Positions 3,271-20,291 of a stretch of 20,343 bases of DNA are shown here, piece by piece. The notes beneath the pieces are model-generated. The model was given only the letters and a program-made list of their open reading frames with translations, was not told the origin of the DNA and searched no databases. A program made the position numbers and the translations under genes. Each line of letters starts with the position of its first letter. Position 1 is the first letter of the stretch. This DNA comes from a virus: IMG/VR virus record IMGVR_UViG_3300017725_000105, positions 1-20,343 of that record. One strand, written 5' to 3'.

Positions 3271-4502
3271 TATCCAGTATTTCCTTTTCCTGTTGTAAAT
3301 GATTCTTGTACACTACTATTTCCTAACCAAGGCTGATGCTCTGGCACACGACTTGCGATACTAGAAGTTATATTACTGTTTACAGTCTGTGCTTGTACTT
3401 CAGGTTTAGATGCAGAGCTTGCAGGAGGACCGTTTAAGTCAATACGCCCACCAGTTGCTTTTATATAACCGCTTGATGCATTTATTTCATATTGTGATGT
3501 TTCGCTTCTGATTGCAAGGGCACTGTGTATATCTATACTACTAGCACTAGATTGTATTTTTATACCTTCATTTCCTGTACTTTTAATATTAACACCTTGG
3601 TCAGCTTGCATATTGATATGTCCTTTTGCATGTACATTATAATCGCCTTCAGTACTGATACTAACACCAGCCTTACTGTACATATCTATTCTGCCTTCAC
3701 TGTCTATTTCTATCCAAGAGCTACCATTTTGGTTTATTATATTAATAAAACCATGTGTATCGTCTAAAAGTATTTGAGCACCTTGTTTTGTTTTTATTCT
3801 TATATTTCTACTAGGTCCATCTTCTTGACCGTCATCTAATGATATTACATGCCCTTCTCTGGTTGTCATACCAAACACACGGCTAGGAGTTTCTCGTCTA
3901 GCACTACTCATACTATGTCCTCTTACATAATCTTCGTCAGTACCTTTCTCTGTTAAAACATCCATTGCTTCGTTATCTGAAGGCCTGGTGTCATTATCAT
4001 TTCTATCATACGGATTCTTTTCACTTGATGGAGACAATATAGTTTTTTCTTCTTTATATGCTTGGCTACTTGCGTTGCCTCCCATCATAGCATTTCTATC
4101 TTTAGATATAAGACTTCCTATATACACACCTTGTTCCATACCAGCAGTGAATAATACAACTACATTTGTGTTTATTGCTGGAGGTTGTGACCACATTCCG
4201 TAGCTCTTAGGGCTACCATTTCCTGTTTGTCCTTCTTCTTCTCCAAACTTCTTTTCGTCTTCACTACTAGCAACAACGTCAGTGTGGCCACCAAATGGAG
4301 TACACAATAGACATATTCTTTCTGTTGCTTTGCCACTAAAATCACTAATACGAACAGTAACTCTACCAGTATGCAAACTATCATTATTTTTTATCACTTG
4401 TCCAATATACATCCCACTGAGGTCGTTAATATTGTATTTGCTATCCTGTTTGCCTCTTCCAGCAACATTGTAGCCTTGTGTTTTGATACTTGATCCTGAC
4501 AT
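3270..4502 (-). CDS. 5: Baseplate central spike protein gp5 (OB-fold plus beta-helix, no lysozyme domain)
   Basis: A 410-aa protein. Residues about 30-140 form the OB-fold (MYIGQVIKNNDSLHTGRVTV, then ERICLLCTPFGG and NTNVVVLFTAGMEQGVYIGSL). Residues about 215-355 carry short repeats of the gp5/VgrG beta-helix needle (GHVISLDDG, IRIKTKQGAQILLDD, WIEIDSEGRIDMYSKAG, INMQADQGVNIKST). gp5 makes the trimeric membrane-piercing spike under the gp27 hub. T4 gp5 is 575 aa with a lysozyme domain between these two parts; here only a linker of about 75 polar residues lies there, so the enzyme domain is absent. It overlaps the upstream hub gene by one base and has an AAGGAT ribosome site. Family call is firm. 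Confidence 0.88.
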   Translation of the reverse strand: MSGSSIKTQGYNVAGRGKQDSKYNINDLSGMYIGQVIKNNDSLHTGRVTVRISDFSGKATERICLLCTPFGGHTDVVASSEDEKKFGEEEGQTGNGSPKSYGMWSQPPAINTNVVVLFTAGMEQGVYIGSLISKDRNAMMGGNASSQAYKEEKTILSPSSEKNPYDRNDNDTRPSDNEAMDVLTEKGTDEDYVRGHSMSSARRETPSRVFGMTTREGHVISLDDGQEDGPSRNIRIKTKQGAQILLDDTHGFINIINQNGSSWIEIDSEGRIDMYSKAGVSISTEGDYNVHAKGHINMQADQGVNIKSTGNEGIKIQSSASSIDIHSALAIRSETSQYEINASSGYIKATGGRIDLNGPPASSASKPEVQAQTVNSNITSSIASRVPEHQPWLGNSSVQESFTTGKGNTG

Positions 4503-6358
4503 TATTCTATCCTTATATTAACTAAAGCATCGAGCGTTAGGAACGAATTTGTATTTCTATCTTTATATGCATCTAGTGTTTGAGTAAACTGTCCTTGTTG
4601 GAACTTGCTTTCAATTGTAACAACTTTATATATACCAGTACTAATTAAATCAACAGGTCCTCTATTTTGGTCTATTAGCAAATCTTTTTCGTTTGCTTGA
4701 TAATTTAAAAATCCTATCATTGCATTTGTGCCTTTAAAGTTTGCTACTGATAGTTTATTGCCACTTCTCACACTATCAGGAGTACCCATCCAAAAAGGAT
4801 CTCCTTTAATTTCCAATACAATTTGTTGTGCATCATTTTCTCGTCTTGCCATTTGTCCAGCAACAGAGCTTGCAATTCTATCTGTTTCTGTCAATGTTTC
4901 ATTAACTTGTTGTGAATTAGGGCTACCTGGTATTCTATCATACACAACACTTTCATTAACATTTATTTTTGGTAATTCAACATCACTTAGGAAAAATTCT
5001 CCCGTAAGTTGCTGTTGTTGCTCTCTTGTTTTAAGCGTAACACCTTTTCTATCTGTAGTTATTTGAATAGCATTTGTGGGTGTAAATTGTTGATTATTAT
5101 CAGCATAATATATACCAGCAGCAGGCGCCTGTGCTACTGTAAATAACTGTTGTATGTCTAATTGGAAATCTAATATTTCAGTATTTTCTCCAGTATATAG
5201 GTAGTTGTATTTTTTTACTATAGGCAACGCTTCAAATCGCTGTCTTTGAATTGGTTGATTTGTTTGTAGTTGTTCTTGTTCATCTGCCAATTCTTTTGGA
5301 ACTGTAAAATCTTCTCCCAAATGTATAGTCACAATAATTTTAGTACGTTGTGTATTTAAGGTACTATCTTCATCATTAAATAATTCTTCTGATACAGTTG
5401 TATAAACATAAGGCACAACAAAACTATTTTTTCTTGCATCTTGTACATATGTACTAAAACTTGGTACGTTTTTTTCAATAAGGCTAGTAACTTTTGCAGT
5501 TAGTTGTGTTTCACTGTTTACTGTTATGTCTCTTGTATTGACGTCTTCCATAGTGGTACTTTGTCCTGATGAGGTTTGGCTATCAGCAGTACCAGCCCAA
5601 GGAGCGGCTTTTAAATCAAATCTTTTTGTTCTAGTTACACTGTCAACTTCTATACTTGTGCTTGGTGCAAATTCAACAACATACTCTTTATTTGGTTTAA
5701 ATCCGCTTGCTTGCTCTTCAGGCCTCAATAGGTTGAACTCAGCTTCATTAAGTGTATCTTGTAAACGTTGCCCAAAGTTTTGAACATTAGTAACTTCGCT
5801 TATATTAATGTCAGTTTTTGTTACTGTACTTGTTTGTGCAGATTTAATAATACTTTGCGCTACTATAAAGTATTTTGCGCCCGCTGGTCCTAGACTTGCT
5901 TTCATTTGTCCTATACGTAACTGGTATAGAAAAATACCATCATATTTTTTACTTGCACCAGTTTCACTGTCTCTGCCTACAAATTCTAATTTAAGAACAT
6001 ATGCTTGGCTAGGAAAGTTACTGGGTCTACCCATTCTTCTACCTACACTTAAAACTCTATCTAATAAACTAAATCCCAAAGGTTCATATATTTCAAACAC
6101 AAACCCAGTAGGCGTACTATTACCTCCAGTTGTACCTGGATTAATTGTACTTTGAATAATTACATTCTCTATACTATATGCGCCAGTTACACCACTTTCA
6201 GCAATCACTACTGCCTTGCCTGCTTGTAAGGAGGCAGTGTCATTTACTGCTAATGGTTTGGGGTCATTATATAGATCATTATCAACAATATAAAATGTAA
6301 ATTTATATGTACCTAAATCTACTGTGCTGATCCAATTATCAGTTACTGTTTTGGTCAT
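4502..6358 (-). CDS. Baseplate hub protein, gp27-like
   Basis: A 618-aa protein immediately upstream of gp5, overlapping it by one base. No single motif gives a certain name. The C-terminal third has an EIKGDPFWMGTP segment (about residues 515-527) and ends in a stretch typical of hub proteins (STGIYKVVTIESKFQQGQFTQ). The N-terminus (WISTVDLGTYKFTFYIVDN) and EIYEPLGFSLLDRVL fit a virion beta-rich protein that positions a tube-like barrel. In T4 gp27 (391 aa) forms the trimeric hub that plugs onto gp5, and in contractile systems the hub gene usually sits directly before the spike gene. Assignment therefore rests mainly on position; the protein is longer than T4 gp27. The middle (Gln/Ser/Thr-rich, about 265-285 and 365-385) looks like linkers. 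Confidence 0.6.
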   Translation of the reverse strand: MTKTVTDNWISTVDLGTYKFTFYIVDNDLYNDPKPLAVNDTASLQAGKAVVIAESGVTGAYSIENVIIQSTINPGTTGGNSTPTGFVFEIYEPLGFSLLDRVLSVGRRMGRPSNFPSQAYVLKLEFVGRDSETGASKKYDGIFLYQLRIGQMKASLGPAGAKYFIVAQSIIKSAQTSTVTKTDINISEVTNVQNFGQRLQDTLNEAEFNLLRPEEQASGFKPNKEYVVEFAPSTSIEVDSVTRTKRFDLKAAPWAGTADSQTSSGQSTTMEDVNTRDITVNSETQLTAKVTSLIEKNVPSFSTYVQDARKNSFVVPYVYTTVSEELFNDEDSTLNTQRTKIIVTIHLGEDFTVPKELADEQEQLQTNQPIQRQRFEALPIVKKYNYLYTGENTEILDFQLDIQQLFTVAQAPAAGIYYADNNQQFTPTNAIQITTDRKGVTLKTREQQQQLTGEFFLSDVELPKINVNESVVYDRIPGSPNSQQVNETLTETDRIASSVAGQMARRENDAQQIVLEIKGDPFWMGTPDSVRSGNKLSVANFKGTNAMIGFLNYQANEKDLLIDQNRGPVDLISTGIYKVVTIESKFQQGQFTQTLDAYKDRNTNSFLTLDALVNIRIE

Positions 6359-6644: not shown

Positions 6645-7339
6645 TAGATATATCCTTTATCAATTAGTGATCCACCTGAAGCAAAGTTTTTAATGTTGAA
6701 TTCTTTACGCACACTACTTGGTGGTAATTGTACACCTAAATCTATAGACAATAATAATTGTGTAGGTATGGTAACAGTACTACCAGGTTCAAAATCTGCT
6801 CCTGCATTTAAAATTGTTGTATCTTCAATTTGAGGACCACTTTCAATATCTGATTCAGATACCATTACATAATCAACATCTTCTGTTAATGTGTATGAAA
6901 CGCTTTTTACTACTACTGGTGTATTTTTTGCATGTACTGCGCCGTATCCACTAAAACTAAGAATAGGTGGAGGTGTTCCAGCAGTAGCTCTTCTTTGTTG
7001 TCCAAAATCTGACTTTACACACGTTTTTAAAAAATGTATAGCAGCAATTGTATATTTTGCTTCTTCTAAATTATTACTTGTAAATAATGCAGTGATGTTA
7101 ATCTGAGGAGTTGGGGTGTTTACATAATAATTAGGAGCATACATACCATGTGTTATATCGAAAGCACCATAATTTGCACTGTGCGACATCTGTATTGTAG
7201 GTGTGTAAGGAAAAACTATACCCCCATTATTGGATCCTTGTCCAGAACGTAAAGGTGCTAACATACCACTAAAGTCAAAAGGGTTTCCTGGTTTTGTTAC
7301 CAGCTTTACAAATTGATCTTGTGCTACTCCACCACTCAT
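6644..7339 (-). CDS. Tail tube initiator / tube-baseplate adaptor protein (gp48/gp54-like)
   Basis: A 231-aa virion protein. It contains FPYTPTIQMSHSANYGAFDI, then YYVNTPTPQINITALFTSNN and EEAKYTIAAIHFLKTCVKSD. This pattern occurs in tube-initiator or tube-like baseplate proteins of many large myoviruses. The mixed beta-strand and helix arrangement would fit a tube-type barrel. Position supports it: the order tube initiator, LysM protein, hub, spike, gp25, gp6 is the standard order of contractile tails. It starts by an ATGA four-base overlap with the nucleotidyltransferase and overlaps the next start by one base, so translation is coupled throughout. Whether it corresponds to gp48 or gp54 of T4 cannot be decided by eye. 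Confidence 0.55.
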   Translation of the reverse strand: MSGGVAQDQFVKLVTKPGNPFDFSGMLAPLRSGQGSNNGGIVFPYTPTIQMSHSANYGAFDITHGMYAPNYYVNTPTPQINITALFTSNNLEEAKYTIAAIHFLKTCVKSDFGQQRRATAGTPPPILSFSGYGAVHAKNTPVVVKSVSYTLTEDVDYVMVSESDIESGPQIEDTTILNAGADFEPGSTVTIPTQLLLSIDLGVQLPPSSVRKEFNIKNFASGGSLIDKGYI

Positions 7340-7944
7340 GTAAGTCTATCCTCGATAAATTTAAATATCTTCTCATCAAACTTTCCAAAGAACTTAGCAA
7401 ACATTTTTTGTTTTTCCTCTGGAGATGCGTTACTTGCCATTGTTTCACGGAAATCACTTGCACTCATGCCACCTTGCATAAGTGGTGCTTCATAATAATA
7501 TATCATTTCAGCAGCTGGTTTCATTTCATCCATGTTATCTGGCAATGGTTGTACTTTATCTGATCCGCCTAAACGCCCTGCGTCTTTGGCACCAAATACC
7601 AATACAAGTCTTGTATTGTTGTTATCTCTGCCTACTGTAGATGGTTCACTTCTGTATGGATTGGTATTTACAATCTTATCTGATGGTATACCAAACATTG
7701 TAGACATAATGCTTTTCTTTTCGTCAAATGTAAATGGATCATCGCTATAGTTGCCAGCCGCATGCATCTTTGTTGCTTTCTGACTAAAAGTCGTAGCAAT
7801 AAATACATTTGAAGCACCGAACTTGCCTACTAGATGTTTATATACATCTCGGTGTCCTTGGTGCATAGGTTGAAAGCGACCTCCAAAAAATACTACAACA
7901 TTTGCAACATTTTCAGTTATTTTAATAATTTCATTAATAAGCAT
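7336..7944 (-). CDS. Nucleotidyltransferase of the NMN-adenylyltransferase/HxGH superfamily
   Basis: A 202-aa protein beginning with the nucleotidyltransferase signature VVFFGGRFQPMHQGHRDVYKHL (approximately residues 17-38), with the ATP-binding HxGH motif at His28-Gln-Gly-His31. Residues near 156 (GGMSASDFRETM) stand where the second nucleotide-binding motif (ISxTxxR in NadR/NadM-like enzymes) normally is. Enzymes of this fold transfer a nucleotide from ATP or CTP to a phosphate, for example NMN to NAD. The substrate here is unknown. It is the first gene of the late baseplate operon, with a GGAGA ribosome site 6 nt before the ATG and a late promoter directly upstream, so it would be made with virion proteins rather than with early metabolic genes. 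Superfamily call is strong, substrate is not. Confidence 0.8.
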   Translation of the reverse strand: MLINEIIKITENVANVVVFFGGRFQPMHQGHRDVYKHLVGKFGASNVFIATTFSQKATKMHAAGNYSDDPFTFDEKKSIMSTMFGIPSDKIVNTNPYRSEPSTVGRDNNNTRLVLVFGAKDAGRLGGSDKVQPLPDNMDEMKPAAEMIYYYEAPLMQGGMSASDFRETMASNASPEEKQKMFAKFFGKFDEKIFKFIEDRLT

Positions 7945-11737: not shown

Positions 11738-11909
11738 CGAAGAAGATTTATCTAAAAATTGGAGCAAAATTATTGAAAAAGTAATGTATCCAAAAAAACA
11801 AATTGCAGATACACAACATGAATTATTTGCATCCAAATTTAAACATATAGACATTACAAAATTAGGCATTGACATAATGCAGAAAATACAGTATAAACAA
11901 GATGAGTAG
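11730..11909 (+). CDS. Small hypothetical protein (59 aa)
   Basis: Start chosen at ATG 11730 (MSNEEDLSKNW); an in-frame TTG lies 6 nt upstream but is inside gp46. The protein is hydrophilic, mostly helical in appearance, with no recognisable motif. It overlaps the gp46 end by 8 nt and the next gene's start by 8 nt (ATGAGTAG), so it is squeezed within the operon and probably translated by coupling. The dense packing is the main evidence that it is real. Function unknown. Confidence 0.6.
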   Translation: MSNEEDLSKNWSKIIEKVMYPKKQIADTQHELFASKFKHIDITKLGIDIMQKIQYKQDE

Positions 11910-12447
11910 TAAAAGTAAAAATAAAGGAAAAGGTTTTGAACGTGAAGTATGTAAAATACTTTCAGAAATCTATCAAGACAACTTCGAACGTGTCCCACAC
12001 AGTGGAGCGTTTGTAGGCGGCATTAATGCCGCTCGTAAGAGTACACTTACGGAAAATCAAATCAAGGCATTTAAAGGAGATATAATTCCTCCTGATAACT
12101 GGAATTATTTTAACTGTGAGTGTAAAAACTATGCAGACTTTCCTTTCCATCAACTATTACAGGAAAAACCAATACCAATTTTAGAACAATGGCTCGAACA
12201 AACACTAGACGCACATGATGAAAACGACTTAGACATATTGTTTATGAAGTTTAATCGCAAAGGCATTTACATAGCATTTCCTTCGATATTGGATAGATTT
12301 TTATTCACTTCTCGAAGAGTAAATTATGGATCAAAAAAATATGGATCATGGACAATTACATTTTGGGATGATTTTAAGGCTAATACAGAAAATACTGAAA
12401 CACTAGAGACTTTTGCCATTAATGGCGCTAATATAGACCCTAGATAA
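11902..12447 (+). CDS. PD-(D/E)XK nuclease, Holliday-junction-resolvase-like
   Basis: A 181-aa protein with the restriction-nuclease fold pattern seen in Hjc-type resolvases: an N-terminal helix KGKGFEREVCKIL with Glu13/Glu15, VPHSGAFVGG (31-40), KGDIIPP with Asp60, and NCECKNYADF with the Glu73-x-Lys75 pair. The C-terminal half (ILFMKFNRKGIYIAF) supplies further beta strands. The likely task is cutting branched or damaged DNA. Placement directly behind gp47 and gp46 supports a recombination or end-processing role, but substrate specificity is inference; a RecB-type exonuclease is the alternative. It shares 8 nt with the 59-aa gene and ends the operon. No ribosome site of note is seen. Confidence 0.68.
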   Translation: MSSKSKNKGKGFEREVCKILSEIYQDNFERVPHSGAFVGGINAARKSTLTENQIKAFKGDIIPPDNWNYFNCECKNYADFPFHQLLQEKPIPILEQWLEQTLDAHDENDLDILFMKFNRKGIYIAFPSILDRFLFTSRRVNYGSKKYGSWTITFWDDFKANTENTETLETFAINGANIDPR

Positions 12448-12773: not shown

Positions 12774-12983
12774 CATGCTTGGCCTTCTTCAGGCTAAGTG
12801 TGAATAAAACTTCATGTGATATAGTATCATAAATATTATTATAGAAAAAATTCTTAATGATAATTATAATTTTCGATATTTCCTAAAGTAACAGCGAATA
12901 AAGCGATAGCTTTATGAAGCTGAAAATGCCGTAGGCATTTAATAGGATATATAATATAATCTTAGATATATGGATACCTGTGA
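12774..12983 (+). other. AT-rich non-coding leader with three small hairpins
   Basis: No ORF of note lies here. Three hairpins are visible: CTTGGCCT/AGGCTAAG with loop TCTTC (12778-12798, one G-T pair), TAAAGC/GCTTTA with loop GATA (12899-12914), and AAATGCC/GGCATTT with loop GTA (12924-12940). None is followed by a T-run, so they are not terminators. They may shape the leader of the gene at 12984. Two overlapping TATAAT boxes (12950-12960) lie 24-34 nt before that gene without a recognisable -35. Confidence 0.45.
12828..12835 (+). promoter_or_regulatory. Possible late promoter (CATAAATA)
   Basis: CATAAATA followed by TTATT, the same one-base variant of the T4 late core as at 20287. If used, transcription would begin near 12841 and give a leader of about 143 nt containing two hairpins before the ATG at 12984. 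The surrounding AT-richness makes a chance match possible. Confidence 0.35.
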
Positions 12984-13424
12984 ATGAATTTCCAAGAGTT
13001 TCAAGATAAATTTCTTGAATGGACTGAAGAAGAAATCGAAGCTAAAAAATTGGATGGATTTCCCATTTGTCCTTTTGCTAGAAAAGCTAGATTACAAAAC
13101 AAAATACAATTTATAGATGCTAGAGATAATCTAGCTTCAAGTTATGATACGTTTGATAAGGAAACTTATGAAATAGGTATTGCTTGGGTAGATGGTTGTG
13201 ACATGTCAGAAGTAGAGAAAATTATAGAACTTCAGGCAACAAAGGATACTGACTTGTTGTATTTTACCAGTACAACAACAAGTGGCCACTTTACTAAGAA
13301 CTTCACTAATTGTGTTTTTATTCAGTTACGTGGAGATTTGGAAGAAAAAAGAAAATATTTACACACAACCAAATATTATGACAGTTGGCCATTAGATTAT
13401 TATAAAATGATCACTTCTGTTTAA
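12984..13424 (+). CDS. Hypothetical protein (146 aa)
   Basis: An acidic, soluble protein of unknown function. Start is the ATG giving MNFQEFQDKFLEW; no clear ribosome site precedes it. Features seen: an ICPFARKA segment (28-35) with a Cys-Pro in a short loop, a DGCDMSEVEKI segment (65-75), and many aromatic residues towards the C-terminus. I have the impression that small CPFA-containing proteins occur in T4-like marine phages, but cannot name a family. It is isolated between the RNA region and the gp26 unit, and its last 14 nt overlap the end of the converging gene. Confidence 0.7.
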   Translation: MNFQEFQDKFLEWTEEEIEAKKLDGFPICPFARKARLQNKIQFIDARDNLASSYDTFDKETYEIGIAWVDGCDMSEVEKIIELQATKDTDLLYFTSTTTSGHFTKNFTNCVFIQLRGDLEEKRKYLHTTKYYDSWPLDYYKMITSV

Positions 13425-13677
13425 TAGCGTTATTTCTTTCTTCAGCCATATGGTTCATTCTTTCTACCAATAACATAACACTGTCTATTGGCATTGTCAT
13501 AACATCTTGATATGATACAGCCCCATTGCTGTGCAATACAATATCAAGATAATCAGATTCTGTCTTCTTAGCGTCTTTATTATATCTTTCGACTATGTCT
13601 AATATTTCTTGGGGCTGACGAGAAGCTATCAGCCCTCGAAAAAATTTGCAATATCCAGATCTACCGTAGTTTGCCAT
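13411..13677 (-). CDS. gp51-position ORF, probable C-terminal extension of gp26 made by -1 frameshift
   Basis: An 88-codon frame starting at ATG 13677 inside gp26, in the -1 frame, overlapping gp26 by 49 nt. No ribosome site precedes this ATG. The part beyond the slippery site (76 aa from Phe13: FRGLIASRQPQEILDIVERY onward, ending VERMNHMAEERNNAIKQK) is helical and highly charged, as in the T domain of tail assembly chaperones. A frameshift would give a fusion of 351 aa (275 from gp26 plus 76). In T4, gene 51 (hub assembly catalyst) follows gene 26, so the position matches gp51 even though length does not (T4 gp51 is about 249 aa). Family assignment is positional only. Independent translation from 13677 remains possible. 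Confidence 0.7.
   Translation of the reverse strand: MANYGRSGYCKFFRGLIASRQPQEILDIVERYNKDAKKTESDYLDIVLHSNGAVSYQDVMTMPIDSVMLLVERMNHMAEERNNAIKQK
13612..13647 (-). promoter_or_regulatory. Programmed -1 ribosomal frameshift signal
   Basis: On the minus strand the gp26 frame reads A AAT TTT (13647-13641), which fits the X XXY YYZ slippery rule exactly. After a 5-nt spacer (13640-13636) comes a perfect 7-bp stem: GGGCTGA (13635-13629), 10-nt loop, TCAGCCC (13618-13612). The gp26 stop codon TGA (13631-13629) lies in the stem. Slipping back one base lands in the open frame that continues to 13411. GC-rich hairpins are otherwise rare in this AT-rich DNA. Confidence 0.8.
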
Positions 13678-14465
13678 TCATGCTGACAACTTTGGCACTG
13701 TGCGTTAAATTTTGTATCGATAACATTTTCACTTAATGCTTCAATACATTGTTTGATTTGGTCATAATCTTTCTTTGTAATACTCTGTAACCATTCTAAA
13801 ATAATTTTAACTTGGTCACTTTCAAACACTTCATTATCTGGTGTTTGAACTTTTTGTATACAGTTAGCGATTAATCCCACTGTTAAGTCTGCTATTTCTA
13901 CAAATGTTTTACCAAACTGAGCTTCTCTCTCTTCATCTGATAAATTTGCATCACTGAGACTTTCAATTAATTTTTGTTGTTTAATTGTCTGCACCTGCAA
14001 TAATGTTCTGTCACGCAAACTATAAGGCTTACAAAAAACTTTAAAGTTGCTTTCTAGTTTTACATCCTCTGGTGCTTGCTGGTTAGATCCTGTACCAAGC
14101 AACATACTTCCATCAATTTGTAGTTGATTCATATGTTCACAAGCAGGACATTTTATGTCTAGATCTATTTTATTGCCGTAACTGGCTTGTCGTATGCCTA
14201 TTAAAATACTAAGTAAATCATTCACAGGTATTTCATTTGGATCTTCAATATCTGGCACACAACTTTTAATTAAACTTATTGTGGCTTCACCATTAAACAA
14301 AGCATCTGGATTTTTTGTAACTAATTCGTCTCTGGCAGTCATAGGAAAGATAGCCAGTTCGTTATCAACGCTAAGTTTAGGCTTGGTTGTATAATACTTA
14401 CCTTCACTAGGTAATGCAATATATAATGCAGGTTTTCTATAAGCTGCAATTAATGGGTTGTTCAT
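13629..14465 (-). CDS. 26: Baseplate hub assembly protein gp26-like (T4 baseplate protein family)
   Basis: A 278-aa protein starting at ATG 14465 (MNNPLIAAYRKPALYIALPS), which has a GGAGA ribosome site 5 nt upstream; a longer frame to 14549 exists but lacks a proper start. It shows the T4 gp26 family pattern: LPSEGKYY, ELAIFPMTARDELVTKNPDA, SCVPDIEDPNEIP and two CxxC pairs (Cys106/Cys109 in KCPACEH, Cys257/Cys260 in QCQSCQH) likely binding zinc. T4 gp26 (208 aa) takes part in hub assembly. The gene lies divergently to the two tape-measure-like genes, where tail assembly chaperone genes are usually found near. Its last codons contain a slippery site leading into the next ORF. Confidence 0.8.
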   Translation of the reverse strand: MNNPLIAAYRKPALYIALPSEGKYYTTKPKLSVDNELAIFPMTARDELVTKNPDALFNGEATISLIKSCVPDIEDPNEIPVNDLLSILIGIRQASYGNKIDLDIKCPACEHMNQLQIDGSMLLGTGSNQQAPEDVKLESNFKVFCKPYSLRDRTLLQVQTIKQQKLIESLSDANLSDEEREAQFGKTFVEIADLTVGLIANCIQKVQTPDNEVFESDQVKIILEWLQSITKKDYDQIKQCIEALSENVIDTKFNAQCQSCQHEWQTTVDLDIANFFEG

Positions 14466-14477
14466 TATATTCTCCGC

Positions 14478-14485
14478 GATAAATA
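14478..14485 (+). promoter_or_regulatory. Late promoter for the tape-measure unit
   Basis: GATAAATAC, one base from the T4 late core, with an expected start near 14491 and a 37-nt leader to the ATG at 14528. It forms the left arm of a perfect 9-bp inverted repeat (14478-14486 with 14500-14508), whose right arm is the late promoter of gp26. Confidence 0.65.
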
Positions 14486-14500
14486 CGTTAAGTACAATAG

Positions 14501-14508
14501 TATTTATC
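14501..14508 (-). promoter_or_regulatory. Late promoter for the gp26 unit
   Basis: The minus strand reads GATAAATACTATTG, matching the T4 late core except the first base and matching the usual CTATT extension. Start expected near 14495, a leader of about 30 nt, then GGAGA (14471-14475) and the gp26 ATG. It points toward the opposing promoter, so the two predicted start sites lie about 4 bp apart. Confidence 0.65.
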
Positions 14509-14527
14509 TGGATTAAAACTGCACATA

Positions 14528-17371
14528 ATGGAACAAATAGTAAATTCAATACACAATCAATACCCTTGGGCTAGTGAAGAAACGGCAACTCGTTTAGCTG
14601 AACTTACTAGATCAAGTAATATTAAAAGCACCGCCTTGGCTGTGGCTATTGGTAATGTATTCAATCAGTCCGAAGGAAATGCTATTAAACAGTCTATTGC
14701 AAGCGCATTGCGAGATGTCGATTTAGCAGGTAAAAGAGCAGAAGAAACTATAGACGATATTAAAAAGAGCATCAAAAGTTCTACTAATATTATGGGTAGT
14801 GCAAGTGGAATAGAGGCTATATCAGAACTTACATATGCTGGTACACAAGCATTACACAAACTTACAAAAGCATCCACCAGTTCTGTGGGAGCAGGCAAAG
14901 CAGGAGCCGCACTTAAAGGGGTTTTAAACTATGGAACAGGAGCCGCTGTAGGTGTAGCTGCAATTGGTACAGTGTTTACTAAGTTGATGACAGAACAAGA
15001 AAAACAACTAAGACAGCTGATTGATTATGGTATGGTTGTTGGCGATACCCAATTGTTTACTGACCTTAGAGGAAGAGTAGCACAGTTAGGTATGAGTTTG
15101 GGAGATTTTAGCAGTGTAATAGAAAAAACAAAGCCTATGATGACTCGTGTGTCAAACAACACATTTGAAGGACAAATGCAATTTGCAGAGTTTGTAGCAA
15201 ATAGTTACAGTGATAAAACAGCCAAAAGGTTTGGATACAGTATACAAGAATACGCCAATGTACTTGCACAAGAAGCCGCTATGCTTTATGAAACAAATCA
15301 GATACAAGATTTTGGTCTACAGACGCAAGCTAAAATTATTAAAACTTTTGAAACTGTAAATAATTTAAGTTTATTTTTAGCCGATAATATCGGAGTACAA
15401 CGTAGTGAGCAGTTACGACTACGATCTGAGGCATCAGAAAACGAAGAATTTAGCCATGCTTTGAGACAAAATGGAGAATATATTACACAACAATTTGGTA
15501 ATGAAGCACAAAGAAATATTAAAGAGGGAAATGAACTTCTTAATATCATATTCACTGCTGGGCTTGGTGAAGAGTTTGCAAAAGAATCTCAACAAATATT
15601 TGCAAACGCTTTGAGCGACATAAGTTTTGATACTAGTATTGTAAACAATGCAAGTGCTGATTTTATAAAAACGTTGCAAGTAATAAGTCCTGACGCAGCA
15701 AGTCAATATGTAGGACTAATGGAAGATGTATTACAAGGAAAAATTTCAAGACAGGATGCAGTACTTAGAGGAAGAGAATTTATACAAGCTATAAATGAAA
15801 GTGAATCTAAATTAAGTATCGATGATATTGGAATGAGGGCAACAGAATTAAGAGCGCAAACTGCACTTATACCAAAATCATTTATGAATTTTACAGAAGA
15901 AGAATTTTTAGAACAATTAGAAAGTGGTAGTACAATGGCAGATACTGCTGGTAAGTCTATTGATCAAATTAGTGCAGTATCTATTGCATTTAAAGAAGCA
16001 CAAAATACCATAACTCCAGGATTTGAAACAACAGAAGAAATGTTTGGTCTTGTAACAAAAGCAGGAGAAAACTTTGGTAAAGTTTGGATAAACTTATTTG
16101 GTATAGAAAATGTAAGGACTTTAGAAGAGAGAAGAAAAAGAAATCTAAATGATGTAATCAGAAATGAAAGCGCAGATGCAAAAGTAGAAATGTATGATAA
16201 CTTTGGAGCTTCTGCACAATCAGATCCAGTTAATGAGGTAGTACAAAACTCAGAAACTATATACCATTTAGAACAGCAAATTCAGAATTTGGAAACTGAA
16301 GTAAGTGACGTACAGGCACAAATTGACAAGAAGCAAAAAAGAATTGATATAATTAATCAAGATGTAAGACCTGATAACTCAGTAAACCAAGCATTGCTTA
16401 CAAAAATTCAGACTGAGATTGACGAACTAACTTCACAAGTGTCAGAATCTATTGCAAACCTAGCAACATATAATGAAGAAGTTACACAACTAAAAGAACA
16501 AAATGCTAAAGCTAATTTTAGAATGAGAGATACTACTTCTGAAGATAGTACTGCACCAGAAATAGAAACACCTTTAATGAATTCTCCTATAACATCTTTG
16601 CTAGACTTAATTGGTAAAGGAGAGGGATCTTATGATAGTAGTAATAGAGGAACATCAGGCGGCAGTATCGTAGGCAGTACCCACAGTACTAGTAGAGATG
16701 GTAGAATGTTATCAGAAATGACATTTGCAGATATATTTAAACATCAGAGTATAGATGACCCGCATAATGAAGATAGACTATTTGCAGTAGGCAAGTACCA
16801 AATTATACCTAGTACAATGCAAGAAATATTTCCACATAGTGGACTTAGTTTAGACGATAAATTTACACAAGAAAATCAAGATAAATTAGGTTTATTGTTG
16901 TTACAAGGAAACAATGGTTATAGTAAACGTCCAGAACTGTCAGCATATTTGCAAGGGGAAGACGTATCTCTTAGAACTGCAATGATATCCTTTGCAAGAG
17001 AATGGGCAAGTTTGCCACATCCTGATACTGGAAACAGTGTATATGGTGATGGAAACCGTGCAAGTCATAGTGTAAGTGAAGTTGAAGCTGTATTAAGAAA
17101 AGTGAGAAAAGCAACCTTAGAAGAACAAGGAAGAATAGATTATGTAGAACCGGCTACATTAAGCGAAGCACAATTAAGAAAGCAACGCTTGGAAGAAGAA
17201 ATTTCTTCTTTAAGAGAGCCAACTACTGGAAAAATCACACAGTCACAAAATAGTTTAACTGAAAAAAGAAAACAGATATCATTATTAGAACAAGAACTAG
17301 CACAAGTTATTAATTCTATTAACAATGAATTAAGTAGTGAAAATGCAAAGGAGTTAAACAATAATGGCTAA
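14528..17371 (+). CDS. Tape-measure-like virion protein with GH104-type lytic transglycosylase domain
   Basis: A 947-aa protein with no clear ribosome site before its ATG. Residues 131-154 (GVLNYGTGAAVGVAAIGTVF) are hydrophobic. A long helical body follows, with a coiled coil at about 576-668 (LEQQIQNLETEVSDVQAQID). Residues about 685-865 look like the phage lambda R lysozyme/GH104 family: IGKGEGSYDSSNRG with likely catalytic Glu699, VGKYQIIPSTMQEIF, and REWASLPHPDTG (about 823-834; lambda R has NIWASLP in the same place). This domain would cut glycan strands during DNA injection. A second coiled coil (about 878-943) ends the protein. It overlaps the next gene by 8 nt. Residues about 135-290 look similar in layout to the next protein. 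The domain call is good; the tape-measure role is inferred from length, helicity and neighbour. Confidence 0.72.
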   Translation: MEQIVNSIHNQYPWASEETATRLAELTRSSNIKSTALAVAIGNVFNQSEGNAIKQSIASALRDVDLAGKRAEETIDDIKKSIKSSTNIMGSASGIEAISELTYAGTQALHKLTKASTSSVGAGKAGAALKGVLNYGTGAAVGVAAIGTVFTKLMTEQEKQLRQLIDYGMVVGDTQLFTDLRGRVAQLGMSLGDFSSVIEKTKPMMTRVSNNTFEGQMQFAEFVANSYSDKTAKRFGYSIQEYANVLAQEAAMLYETNQIQDFGLQTQAKIIKTFETVNNLSLFLADNIGVQRSEQLRLRSEASENEEFSHALRQNGEYITQQFGNEAQRNIKEGNELLNIIFTAGLGEEFAKESQQIFANALSDISFDTSIVNNASADFIKTLQVISPDAASQYVGLMEDVLQGKISRQDAVLRGREFIQAINESESKLSIDDIGMRATELRAQTALIPKSFMNFTEEEFLEQLESGSTMADTAGKSIDQISAVSIAFKEAQNTITPGFETTEEMFGLVTKAGENFGKVWINLFGIENVRTLEERRKRNLNDVIRNESADAKVEMYDNFGASAQSDPVNEVVQNSETIYHLEQQIQNLETEVSDVQAQIDKKQKRIDIINQDVRPDNSVNQALLTKIQTEIDELTSQVSESIANLATYNEEVTQLKEQNAKANFRMRDTTSEDSTAPEIETPLMNSPITSLLDLIGKGEGSYDSSNRGTSGGSIVGSTHSTSRDGRMLSEMTFADIFKHQSIDDPHNEDRLFAVGKYQIIPSTMQEIFPHSGLSLDDKFTQENQDKLGLLLLQGNNGYSKRPELSAYLQGEDVSLRTAMISFAREWASLPHPDTGNSVYGDGNRASHSVSEVEAVLRKVRKATLEEQGRIDYVEPATLSEAQLRKQRLEEEISSLREPTTGKITQSQNSLTEKRKQISLLEQELAQVINSINNELSSENAKELNNNG

Positions 17372-20291
17372 GGTACATAATATAACATTACCTGATGGTA
17401 CTACAATACCTGTACCTGCATGGGCTACAGAAGATACTATGACACAAGTTGCTGGATACATGGCAGCGTCTAATAAAGTAGATCAAAAGTTTTTAGGATT
17501 AATGAAGGGCTTAGGAGCAGACGTAACTGACCTTCAACGAGAAATATCAAGTCTAGTAACTGGTGTAAAAAACACCACTAAAAATGAAACTGCATTAGAT
17601 GCGGCAGACGCAACGAGCAAAGGCTTTAAAAATATAGCAAACTCTGTAATGAAAGCAAGTAACTTTTTTGGTGATGCTGAAAAACCAATGACAAGTTTAG
17701 TATCAGCAACAGGTACTTTAACAGATGGTCTTAAAGGTCTTGATGAAGGATTTATTAAAAGACTCATGCCAGAAGGAAGCGCCTTAGGAAAGTTTTTTGG
17801 TAAGTTTGGAGGTACATTGGATGTAGCTACAGATGCTGGTCTTGCTTTGTTAGGTTGGAATGCGGCCAAATTTGAACAGTTTGCAGATGCACAAAAATTA
17901 GCATTAGAAGCAGGTGCAATATTCTATAGCAGTGGAGATCAATTTGATCAACTTTATAGCCGTAGTATGGATGCAGGCGTATCTTATAATAATATGATGG
18001 AAGCTGTAAATCAATTTGGTGGTACATTAACTGGATTAGGTGGAAGTGTAAGTGCAGGAACGGATAACTTTATACATATGTTTGATAATCTAAACGATAT
18101 GGCAGACGGGTTTGGTGATTTGGGACTTACTTCTAAAGATATGCTTAATCAATACGGACAGTTTTTAGAGTACGCACGTTTAAGTGGTCGTTTAGGAAAT
18201 GCTACTCTGGATGCAGGTGATAAAATTAACAAATCATTTATTGATTTAACTATAGAGTCAGCAGGTTTGGCAAACCTTACAGCATTAAGTAAAAGTGAAG
18301 CTATGTCAAGACAATTAGCCGCAATGACAGAACCACTAACTGCACTAGGTAAACAAACTTTACTAAACAACGGATTAACTGCTCAAGCAGCAATGGTAGA
18401 TACATTTGTAGGTCAATTAGGAATGATTGCACCAGAGGCTCCAGAGTTTCAAGGAGTGTTAGATGCAATAAGTAGGGAACTCGCAGAAACAAGTGATAAT
18501 ATTGAAACTTTTGATATTGGACGTAGACTTGATGGTAATTTGCGTGGTGCATTGGATACAGCACTGGGTACTGATTTCATTCCAACAATAAATGAAGCAA
18601 TTAGAACTGGTAATATGGCTAATGCAGATGCAGAGACATATATTATTAGATCCTTGGCAAATGTAAATCAAACCAAACTTGCAAGTGCTGGAGCTGCATC
18701 AGGAAGTATATTAAGACTAGTACAAGATATACAAGCAAGTGGATTTATTATAGAGAAAAACTTTAGTAACTATTTAAAAATGTCAAAATCTGACAGAGAA
18801 AAATATAATAAAGAATTTGGCGAAGCAATGGGTGTATCAGGTAAAAGTGTAGTAATTATGAATAAAGCTACAGAGCAGTTTTACCAATTACAAGATGCTT
18901 TAACCTTTCCTATGCAAACCACCGCAGATACTTTTGAATTTATAGCAGAAGGATTGCAAAAAGGTGCGGCAAAGATTAAAGAGTTTTTTGGACTTTCAAG
19001 TGAGGAAGATGATTTTGGGTCAGTTATTAAAGAAGATGGAAACCAAACACCATCAGTAGATTCAACAAATCCTATACCAGGAAATGGAAACTCTCCTACA
19101 CAAAGAGTTCCGGTACCCAACACAAGTACTGTTTTTGATCCTAGTGGAAATGAAGTAGAAAGCGAAGATATAAACTATACTGAAGATTCAGAACAGACGG
19201 CTGAAAATCTAAACAGTTTAAGTGAACATGTAAGAGATAGATTCAAGGGAACAATATCAGAATTTAATGAAACATATGGAGGTGAAGGATATAGACTATT
19301 ACTAGCTGAAGGGTACAGATCAGTACAAGACTCTAATGAATTATATAATAGTGGAGAAATATCTACACCAGGAGGACAAAGTTATCATAATTATGGTATG
19401 GCTGGAGACTTTTTAATATATAAAGACGGAGAGCTAATACAAAACGACAATAACAGTGAATACACATTATTATCAGAGATTGCAAATAGGCATGGATTAA
19501 ATAACCCTGTAAATAACGATACTGGGCATTTTCAACCTAGTGAAATGCCAGTTGCAGTTCCTGTAGAGTTGTCCACTATAGCAAAAACTAGTAGCGGAAA
19601 TAGATCTCTAATGGAGCAACAGGCAGTTGAGATGAGTGAAAAAATATTAGAAAATGGTAACACTGAGTCTCCTGAACCAGCATCTATTCCAGACAGAACA
19701 ACAGAAACTGATAATCCAAGTGAACAAAGACGTACAGTAAATTCTGACTTTGGCATGAGAGAACTATTAGAAGCAGATAGCGATTTATATGAACAATTAA
19801 CAGCCGCTTATAATGACCATGTTAAAAATACATTATCAGAACTTGATAGAAGAGCTAATCGCGGTGACAAAGCTAGAGCAAGAATGAAAGCTACAAATGA
19901 AGTTTATCCATTATTTGCTGATAGAATTAATGAAGCATTGGGTCGAGAAGCTGTTACAGTAACAAGTAGAAGAATGGGAGGCTCAGTTGGATCTAATAAA
20001 CCATATGTTGTGGGCGACCAATTAGGAATGGAAAATGCAGAATTATTTGTACCAGAAGAATCTGGGACAATTGTTAATAATACAGACTTTAAAACTATGC
20101 TACAAAATTCAAGTAACTTGACAAATACTGATAATAGTAGTATAATAGAGGATCTAGAAAAAGAATATGATAATTTATTGCTACAAAAAGCAGAAGCTGT
20201 ATCTACTGCACTAGCATTGAAAGATACAATAAAACTTATTCACGGTACAAAGCATCAAAAAGCACGTATTGATAGAATAAATTCAGCATAA
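17364..20291 (+). CDS. Tail tape measure-like protein with M15-type peptidoglycan peptidase domain
   Basis: A 975-aa protein with an AAGGAG ribosome site 10 nt before the ATG and an 8-nt overlap with the preceding gene. The N-terminus (ITLPDGTTIPVPAWATEDTM) is distinct, then a long helical body follows. Residues about 645-725 match L-alanyl-D-glutamate/M15 peptidases: EGYRSVQDSNELYNSG, SYHNYGMAGDF and DTGHFQ. The presumed zinc ligands His675, Asp682 and His722 and catalytic Asp719 keep the H-x6-D and D-x2-H spacing of phage T5 endolysin. Residues about 870-905 carry a motif common at tape measure C-termini (GGSVGSNKPYVVGDQLG followed by AELFVPEESGTIVNN). A coiled coil closes the protein. It likely sets tail length and cleaves peptide cross-bridges on infection. 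T4 gp29 (590 aa) has no such domain. Confidence 0.75.
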   Translation: MAKVHNITLPDGTTIPVPAWATEDTMTQVAGYMAASNKVDQKFLGLMKGLGADVTDLQREISSLVTGVKNTTKNETALDAADATSKGFKNIANSVMKASNFFGDAEKPMTSLVSATGTLTDGLKGLDEGFIKRLMPEGSALGKFFGKFGGTLDVATDAGLALLGWNAAKFEQFADAQKLALEAGAIFYSSGDQFDQLYSRSMDAGVSYNNMMEAVNQFGGTLTGLGGSVSAGTDNFIHMFDNLNDMADGFGDLGLTSKDMLNQYGQFLEYARLSGRLGNATLDAGDKINKSFIDLTIESAGLANLTALSKSEAMSRQLAAMTEPLTALGKQTLLNNGLTAQAAMVDTFVGQLGMIAPEAPEFQGVLDAISRELAETSDNIETFDIGRRLDGNLRGALDTALGTDFIPTINEAIRTGNMANADAETYIIRSLANVNQTKLASAGAASGSILRLVQDIQASGFIIEKNFSNYLKMSKSDREKYNKEFGEAMGVSGKSVVIMNKATEQFYQLQDALTFPMQTTADTFEFIAEGLQKGAAKIKEFFGLSSEEDDFGSVIKEDGNQTPSVDSTNPIPGNGNSPTQRVPVPNTSTVFDPSGNEVESEDINYTEDSEQTAENLNSLSEHVRDRFKGTISEFNETYGGEGYRLLLAEGYRSVQDSNELYNSGEISTPGGQSYHNYGMAGDFLIYKDGELIQNDNNSEYTLLSEIANRHGLNNPVNNDTGHFQPSEMPVAVPVELSTIAKTSSGNRSLMEQQAVEMSEKILENGNTESPEPASIPDRTTETDNPSEQRRTVNSDFGMRELLEADSDLYEQLTAAYNDHVKNTLSELDRRANRGDKARARMKATNEVYPLFADRINEALGREAVTVTSRRMGGSVGSNKPYVVGDQLGMENAELFVPEESGTIVNNTDFKTMLQNSSNLTNTDNSSIIEDLEKEYDNLLLQKAEAVSTALALKDTIKLIHGTKHQKARIDRINSA

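Follow-up and report, generated by a model that had tools for sequence, protein, structure and literature searches.

The gp26-like gene analysed here encodes, with a probability that we put at about 0.88, a tail assembly chaperone of a T4-superfamily phage that is made by -1 programmed frameshifting. The gene lies in a virus record of 20,343 bases, which is called the window in the following. The 3' end of the gene carries AAATTTTTTC, followed by a hairpin that contains the gp26 stop codon and by an open -1 frame. These elements and their conservation are observed directly, and the comparison of relatives shows that the signal is real and conserved, and very probably functional.

Predicted frameshift signal at the 3' end of the gp26-like gene

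The 278 aa product of the gene matches the family PF12322 (T4_baseplate, gp26/gp51) with an E value of 1.2e-22 and 81.1 bits (curated cut-off 24.5) over positions 15-219 of the 219 profile positions. It also matches phrog_150 (baseplate hub) with an E value of 2.7e-22. The features of the locus are as follows.

14465-13629, minus strand: gp26-like ORF, 278 aa (short form, TAC-N), assigned by PF12322, phrog_150 and IMG/VR relatives
13675-13677, minus strand: upstream ATG of the -1 frame, an unlikely start, unconserved and with no Shine-Dalgarno-like motif
13647-13641, minus strand: heptamer A AAT TTT, with a spacer of 5 nt (TTCGA, 13640-13636) to the stem
13644-13638, minus strand: heptamer T TTT TTC, the conserved core, overlapping A AAT TTT and 2 nt from the stem
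13612-13635, minus strand: stem of 7 bp with a loop of 10 nt (13628-13619), from folding and covariation
13631-13629, minus strand: gp26 stop codon TGA, the 3'-terminal triplet of the 5' arm, with an in-frame TAG next
13414-13644, minus strand: -1 frame from the slip (FFRGL...) to the last sense codon, predicted C-terminal extension of the long form

The final codons of the gene are GCA AAT TTT TTC GAG GGC TGA TAG. Both overlapping heptamers fit the slippery pattern X XXY YYZ in the zero frame ahead of the stop, and slips on either of them would lead to the identical peptide, ...IANFFRGLIASRQP... The predicted junction peptide of the phage is FNAQCQSCQHEWQTTVDLDIANFFR, the ending of the short form is ANFFEG. 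The arms of the hairpin are GGGCTGA (13635-13629) and TCAGCCC (13618-13612), and the -1 frame runs for 75 codons past the Phe-Phe up to its stop codon TGA at 13413-13411. Two stop codons in tandem, TGA TAG (13626-13631, minus strand), end the gp26 frame inside and adjoining the stem.

An earlier sequence-only reading of the window had claimed an A AAT TTT in the gp26 frame, a spacer of 5 nt, a 7-bp hairpin with the gp26 stop in its stem, a -1 frame that remains open past this stop and an ATG at 13677 that lacks a ribosome site. All of the named signal elements were found on the minus strand, so that this description was accurate, and no Shine-Dalgarno-like sequence precedes the ATG. In the window, AAATTTTTTCG occurs a single time, and 3 of 100 shuffled sequences contain one. 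The bare motif TTTTTTY is frequent, with 22 matches and no excess, and the case for the signal therefore rests on conservation.

Conservation of the slippery site and the -1 frame

Relatives were gathered from IMG/VR and from cultured phages, and 240 sequences of at least 1,500 bases, the window included, were scanned (L001, L020 and shorter loci were left out). 232 of the 240 matched, and the 8 unmatched sequences are all from Campylobacter phage NCTC12673. Two of the matched sequences are incomplete; the remaining 230 collapsed into 150 distinct contexts of 300 bases. The IMG/VR relatives are the best 80 of 570 and the best 80 of 252 loci in two scans. Since these scans returned the best-scoring loci, the 150 contexts are biased to phages close to P-SSM2 or to the window.

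An in-frame xxT TTT TTY stands at most 12 codons from the gp26 stop in 148 of the 150 distinct loci. Beyond the slip, the -1 frame is open for 57-83 codons in 145 loci and reaches the contig end in 3. The expectation of the earlier reading that relatives show no break of this frame was thus borne out in all 148 distinct loci with the heptamer. Upstream of the slip, the open stretch of the -1 frame has a median length of 8 codons and a maximum of 20, and among 37,352 further codon positions inside the gp26 bodies only 8 hold an in-frame T TTT TTY. In favour of a broken gene or an overlap by chance, a single -1 frame open for at least 57 codons is no great rarity (981 of 37,056 codon positions of gp26 bodies). 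The arrangement is shared, however, by 148 of the 150 distinct loci, some of them from phages with a gp26 identity of 25-32% to the window. Conservation and the gp26-body controls led us to reject a chance overlap, and the probability left for this explanation is practically negligible.

Codon usage points in the same direction. At the Phe-Phe nearest to the gp26 stop (n = 150), TTT TTC is used in 145 contexts, TTT TTT in 3 and neither in 2. Elsewhere in the gp26 genes (n = 77), Phe-Phe is written TTT TTC in 5, TTT TTT in 33, TTC TTT in 37 and TTC TTC in 2 cases. Codon choice at the terminal Phe-Phe hence differs from that elsewhere, and the heptamer is not forced by the amino acids.

The earlier reading had expected its heptamer A AAT TTT to be conserved across relatives, which proved right for the slippery site as a whole and wrong for this particular motif. 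T TTT TTY is present in all 148 heptamer loci (148 of 150 contexts), but A AAT TTT in only 58 of the 148. It was found in 49 of 51 loci of the window clade, in 9 of 10 loci of the L077 group and in none of the 87 other loci. The missing motif in 2 of the 51 clade loci and in all 74 cyanophage-type loci rules out A AAT TTT as the essential heptamer. By this comparison of loci, T TTT TTC is the conserved core of the putative slippery site and A AAT TTT is a lineage-specific addition of two groups. Of the two heptamers of the window, A AAT TTT has the more usual spacing to the stem (5 nt versus 2 nt).

Four further, divergent phages, outside of the 150 contexts, all keep the -1 tail, and two of them, Desulfovibrio 7757 and Rhizobium I1_9, carry T TTT TTN. 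In Aeromonas phiA8-29 (L249) and Vibrio K476 (L250), CTT TTC and CTT TTT were observed at the place of the slip; the -1 tail is kept in both. A nucleotide search with positions 12900-15000 of the window against 50,697 phage records gave no match.

RNA structure downstream of the slippery site

Folding of the RNA from 13637 to 13588 gave -14.6 kcal/mol with a z-score of -2.62, and 3 of 200 shuffles were equally good. In the window clade, which supplied 45 distinct sequences, 92.1% of the cells of the stem are paired; the outermost pair is open in 17 and the innermost pair in 8 of the 45. Covariation was directly observed. The stem contains 21 cells with double changes compared to 4.2 in shuffles, none of 500 shuffles reached 21, and the signal is abolished by sliding the stem partners. 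Two of the five stem measures, namely how many pairs show a double change and how many pair types occur, were not above the shuffles.

Pair 16-33 supplies 17 of the 21 double changes. It is C-G in 20, U-A in 17, U-G in 8 and unpaired in none of the 45 sequences. Column 16 occupies the third position of a glycine codon in the gp26 frame and, in the -1 frame, the first position of a leucine codon (CTG/TTG); column 33 occupies the third position of a glutamine codon. Changes of this pair are synonymous in both frames, and the covariation therefore speaks for the RNA. On the gp26 tree, columns 16 and 33 change at least 9 and at least 12 times, respectively. Independent pairs on supported branches differ at column 16 in 3 cases and at column 33 in 7; partner changes always go in the same direction when present and are absent in 4.1 of the 7, and these pairs are too few for significance.

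The downstream fold was then compared between the groups in 145 of the 148 heptamer loci, as 3 were too short. It is strong in the window clade (51 loci, mean z -2.18, 39 under -1.5), in the L077 group with SCTP-2 (mean z -2.55, 9 of 10 under -1.5) and in the cyanophage-type loci (mean z -3.23, 69 of 71 under -1.5). It is weak in the cultured jumbo phages and KVP40, with a mean z of -1.00 and 5 of 13 under -1.5. Four control segments of the same loci have mean z-scores between +0.37 and -1.37, less negative than the means of the window clade and the cyanophage-type loci; the strongest of them, 60-110 bases downstream in the cyanophage-type loci, is under -1.5 in 36 of 71. Compensatory changes of the stem, as the earlier reading had predicted for related phages, are found in the window clade, chiefly at pair 16-33, while the structure is weak in cultured jumbo phages and KVP40.

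The stem also bears on transcriptional slippage, in which a base inserted on the T6 run (A3T6) would give rise to the long form. Its product would be identical and the homopolymer run is conserved. Transcriptional slippage normally takes a run longer than six, yet the run is mostly only six T. Furthermore, it needs no close downstream structure, whereas one is conserved here, with compensatory changes in the window clade. We regard this explanation as very improbable.

Fusion protein or separate gene

Another explanation is that the downstream frame forms a small gene of its own, with an independent start or with termination-coupled reinitiation. The tail is indeed annotated as its own CDS in P-SSM2, S-PM2, KVP40, 121Q and other cultured relatives, and 73 of 74 cyanophage-type loci have an ATG early in the tail, within its first codons. 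However, 12 of 51 loci of the window clade carry an ATG of the -1 frame ahead of tail codon 20 and 39 carry none, and 15 of the 51 have none of ATG, GTG and TTG in this region. An independent start at the ATG 13677 was rejected as a general route, since an ATG occurs at this place in only 12 of the 51 loci and none has a Shine-Dalgarno-like motif. The tail residues which are invariant in the clade (aligned with 20 relatives) begin directly after the slip with R3, L5 and I6, and in T4 the tail is fused in frame. A separate gene would moreover leave the heptamer and the stem unexplained. This alternative thus seems improbable for the locus, although both routes could coexist in the cyanophages. 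The claim that the downstream frame is read by frameshifting gains strong support from the conserved heptamer, the open -1 frame, the covarying stem and starts that are absent or unconserved in the clade.

The sequence of the tail differs between the groups. Tails of the window and of cultured jumbo phages are clearly related, with an HHalign E value of 2.3e-15 (one comparison). The similarity between jumbo and cyanophage tails is weak (HHalign E 0.0016, probability 16%), and cyanophage-type tails match the tail of T4 gp51 with an E value of 1.7e-4 and a probability of 49%. In S-PM2, P-SSM2, HTVC008M, phiM12 and KVP40, a match to phrog_634 in the -1 frame spans the end of gene 26. The AlphaFold2 model of the window tail consists of four helices (pLDDT 84.0).

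T4 and the duplication of the gene

T4 encodes two members of the family, gp26 with 208 aa (PF12322 E 8.8e-64) and gp51 with 249 aa (PF12322 E 3.9e-52). The latter consists of a PF12322 part (residues 1-201) and a C-terminal tail, and this extra C-terminus is covered by phrog_634 ('baseplate hub assembly catalyst') and phrog_150. Gene 26 of T4 ends with GAG TTC TTT GAG, and the heptamer is absent. As far as homology can tell, T4 gp51 is a second gp26-like copy plus the tail, so that the predicted frameshift product of the window corresponds to gp51. The earlier reading had named the fusion gp26-51. This is correct in that the fusion corresponds to T4 gp51, but gp51 is not the downstream ORF alone.

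The two contexts of the 150 that lack the heptamer are T4 gene 26 and the metagenomic L092 group (five loci, one context), in which Phe-Phe is written TTC TTC. Both are from genomes with a second, longer paralog; that the signal is missing from both lineages is a direct observation. In L092, positions 3944-5709 (also in L093-L096), tandem PF12322-like paralogs without a slippery site are followed by an ORF of 1,007 aa. The second gene of L092 encodes 305 aa with a longer C-terminus. It is a paralog of the first (BLASTP E 2e-28) and reaches an E value of 1.3e-4 with PF12322, which is below the cut-off. Its tail is weakly similar to the tails of the window clade (E 0.0028, probability 11%) and gave no match to the tails of cultured jumbo phages. 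The duplication in this group is firm, and the weak match no more than hints that its end is the same tail. The tandem paralogs may represent an independent replacement of frameshifting by duplication.

PF12322 is single copy in all 6 heptamer phage records, in all 3 contigs of the window clade, in all 4 further phages and in 10 of the 11 records of cultured jumbo phages; for the remaining one, SCTP-2, the profile detected no copy and tblastn one. Two copies are present in T4 and in both contigs of the L092 group. In Campylobacter phage NCTC12673 (L065, 1983-3295), three PF12322 stretches were observed in neighbouring ORFs, and the end of the first gene, checked by hand, has no Phe-Phe and no T6. 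From this distribution we give about even odds to the possibility that a frameshift ancestral to the T4 superfamily sets the ratio of the chaperone forms and was lost at least twice on duplication, with divergent genes in T4 and tandem genes in the L092 group.

Genomic neighbourhood and proposed chaperone function

The tail assembly chaperone of other phages sits between the tube gene and the tape measure gene. According to the annotation, gp26 follows the tube gene in KVP40, phiM12, HTVC008M and Rhizobium I1_9, and in phiM12 and HTVC008M a tape-measure-like gene is located after the tail, with one ORF between. In the window, two large ORFs on the opposite strand diverge from gp26; the earlier reading had taken its divergent neighbours for tape-measure genes, a role that is putative here.

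14528-17371, plus strand: 947-aa ORF, candidate tape measure by position; a large virion protein of RaK2 is in the same place
17364-20291, plus strand: 975-aa ORF with a weak VanY-like peptidase region (PF02557 E 0.0012, below cut-off)

The RaK2 counterpart of the 947-aa ORF is noted as resembling a tape measure protein. Residues ~690-870 of the 947-aa ORF match phrogs of unknown function. The 975-aa ORF matches the endolysin phrog_2649 with an E value of 1.6e-9, and its VanY/endolysin-like region comprises residues ~613-724. Several other genes were observed in the window. A stand-alone HNH endonuclease gene (1979-2536, PF14279 E 3.3e-17) lies amid baseplate genes, a gene for a nucleotidyltransferase-like protein (7336-7944, PF01467 E 6.1e-5) adjoins the baseplate cluster, and a PDDEXK endonuclease (11902-12447, PF24608 E 2.2e-25) is encoded downstream of a gp46-like gene.

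The structure of the window gp26 was modelled with AlphaFold2 (pLDDT 87.6). VIA-align ranked 2ob9, the tail assembly chaperone of HK97, first (Z 6.4, rmsd 5.2, 102 of 107 residues), tied with unrelated chains, and this match of the predicted fold to the HK97 chaperone is suggestive. Foldseek against the PDB listed 127 matches at E <= 10 and none at E <= 0.001, while viral predicted structures gave 64 matches at this threshold (E <= 0.001), of which many carry the name baseplate hub protein. A profile search of PDB sequences found one designed protein only (E 0.5). At the level of reading frames, a predicted short form and a predicted extended long form are present at one locus. The proposal of the sequence-only reading that they act as short and long forms of a chaperone gains support from the gp26/gp51 homology, from the placement after a tube gene and, one ORF apart, ahead of a tape-measure-like gene in phiM12 and HTVC008M, and from the suggestive fold match.

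Proposed mechanism and comparison with known systems

We infer slippage, its efficiency and the chaperone action from these data as follows. The majority of the ribosomes would terminate at the TGA 13631-13629 and release the 278-aa gp26 as the short form. A minority, paused by the hairpin, would slip one base back on A AAT TTT TTC and translate 75 extra codons. The slipped product of ~350 aa would be the long form, extended by helices at its C-terminus. The analogy with lambda G/GT suggests that the part common to both forms may coat the tape measure and that the extension may recruit tube subunits. T4 would make the equivalent pair from two genes, with gp26 as the short and gp51 as the long form.

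The T4 proteins gp26 and gp51 ('hub assembly chaperones') belong to the same family, PF12322. The short form of the window matches gp26, and the plan of gp51, a PF12322 part with a tail, is like that of the predicted long form. T4 differs by its two divergent genes and by a gene 26 without the heptamer. The gp26-gp51 loci of cyanophages, KVP40, phiM12 and HTVC008M are like the window in that T TTT TTY is located close to the 3' end of gp26 and the -1 frame encodes the tail. P-SSM2 and S-PM2 have a strong hairpin as in the window, whereas that of KVP40 is weaker (z -1.44). The cyanophage-type loci are distinct in the sequence of the tail (weak in HHalign) and in the ATG near the stop in 73 of 74. 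In KVP40, phiM12 and HTVC008M, gp26 comes after the tube gene, unlike the window gp26 with its divergent large neighbours.

In lambda G/GT and other TAC-N/TAC-NC genes, a -1 slip near the 3' end likewise leads to a minor, C-terminally extended form (PMC5009743). The signal of the window is T TTT TTC with a hairpin, and its likeness to lambda G/GT is one of arrangement. Chaperones of the Vandenendeviridae and Andersonviridae, described for phage Adele, also have a conserved -1 frame and a poly-T motif (PMC12846349). They belong to other families and have the motif GTTTTT, and are likened to the window by this description. According to Atkins et al. (2016; PMC5009743), conservation of the G-T frameshift extends widely over the long-tailed phages, 'except T4'. 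Poly-T slippery sites in TAC-N genes of T4-like phages are credited to Vladimirov et al. (2022) in PMC12846349, and the PRFect paper (PMC10885494) cites the same authors for T4-like phages in which the short form and the long fusion each have their own gene. Going by these citing papers, the chaperone identity and the poly-T sites of T4-like genes are largely anticipated by published work. Searches of the open-licence literature of PubMed Central, in which Vladimirov et al. (2022) is represented through the papers citing it, yielded no description of the window locus, nor of this lineage, of covariation in the stem or of a tandem duplication replacing the signal.

The finding makes the T4 exception intelligible and directly testable, as many relatives appear to frameshift and T4 seems to use two genes instead. 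The pattern further suggests that many of the small ORFs of jumbo and marine phages which are annotated as 'gp51' or hypothetical are parts of fusion proteins. If the frameshift is ancestral, the signal and the second gene copy would be mutually exclusive answers to one problem.
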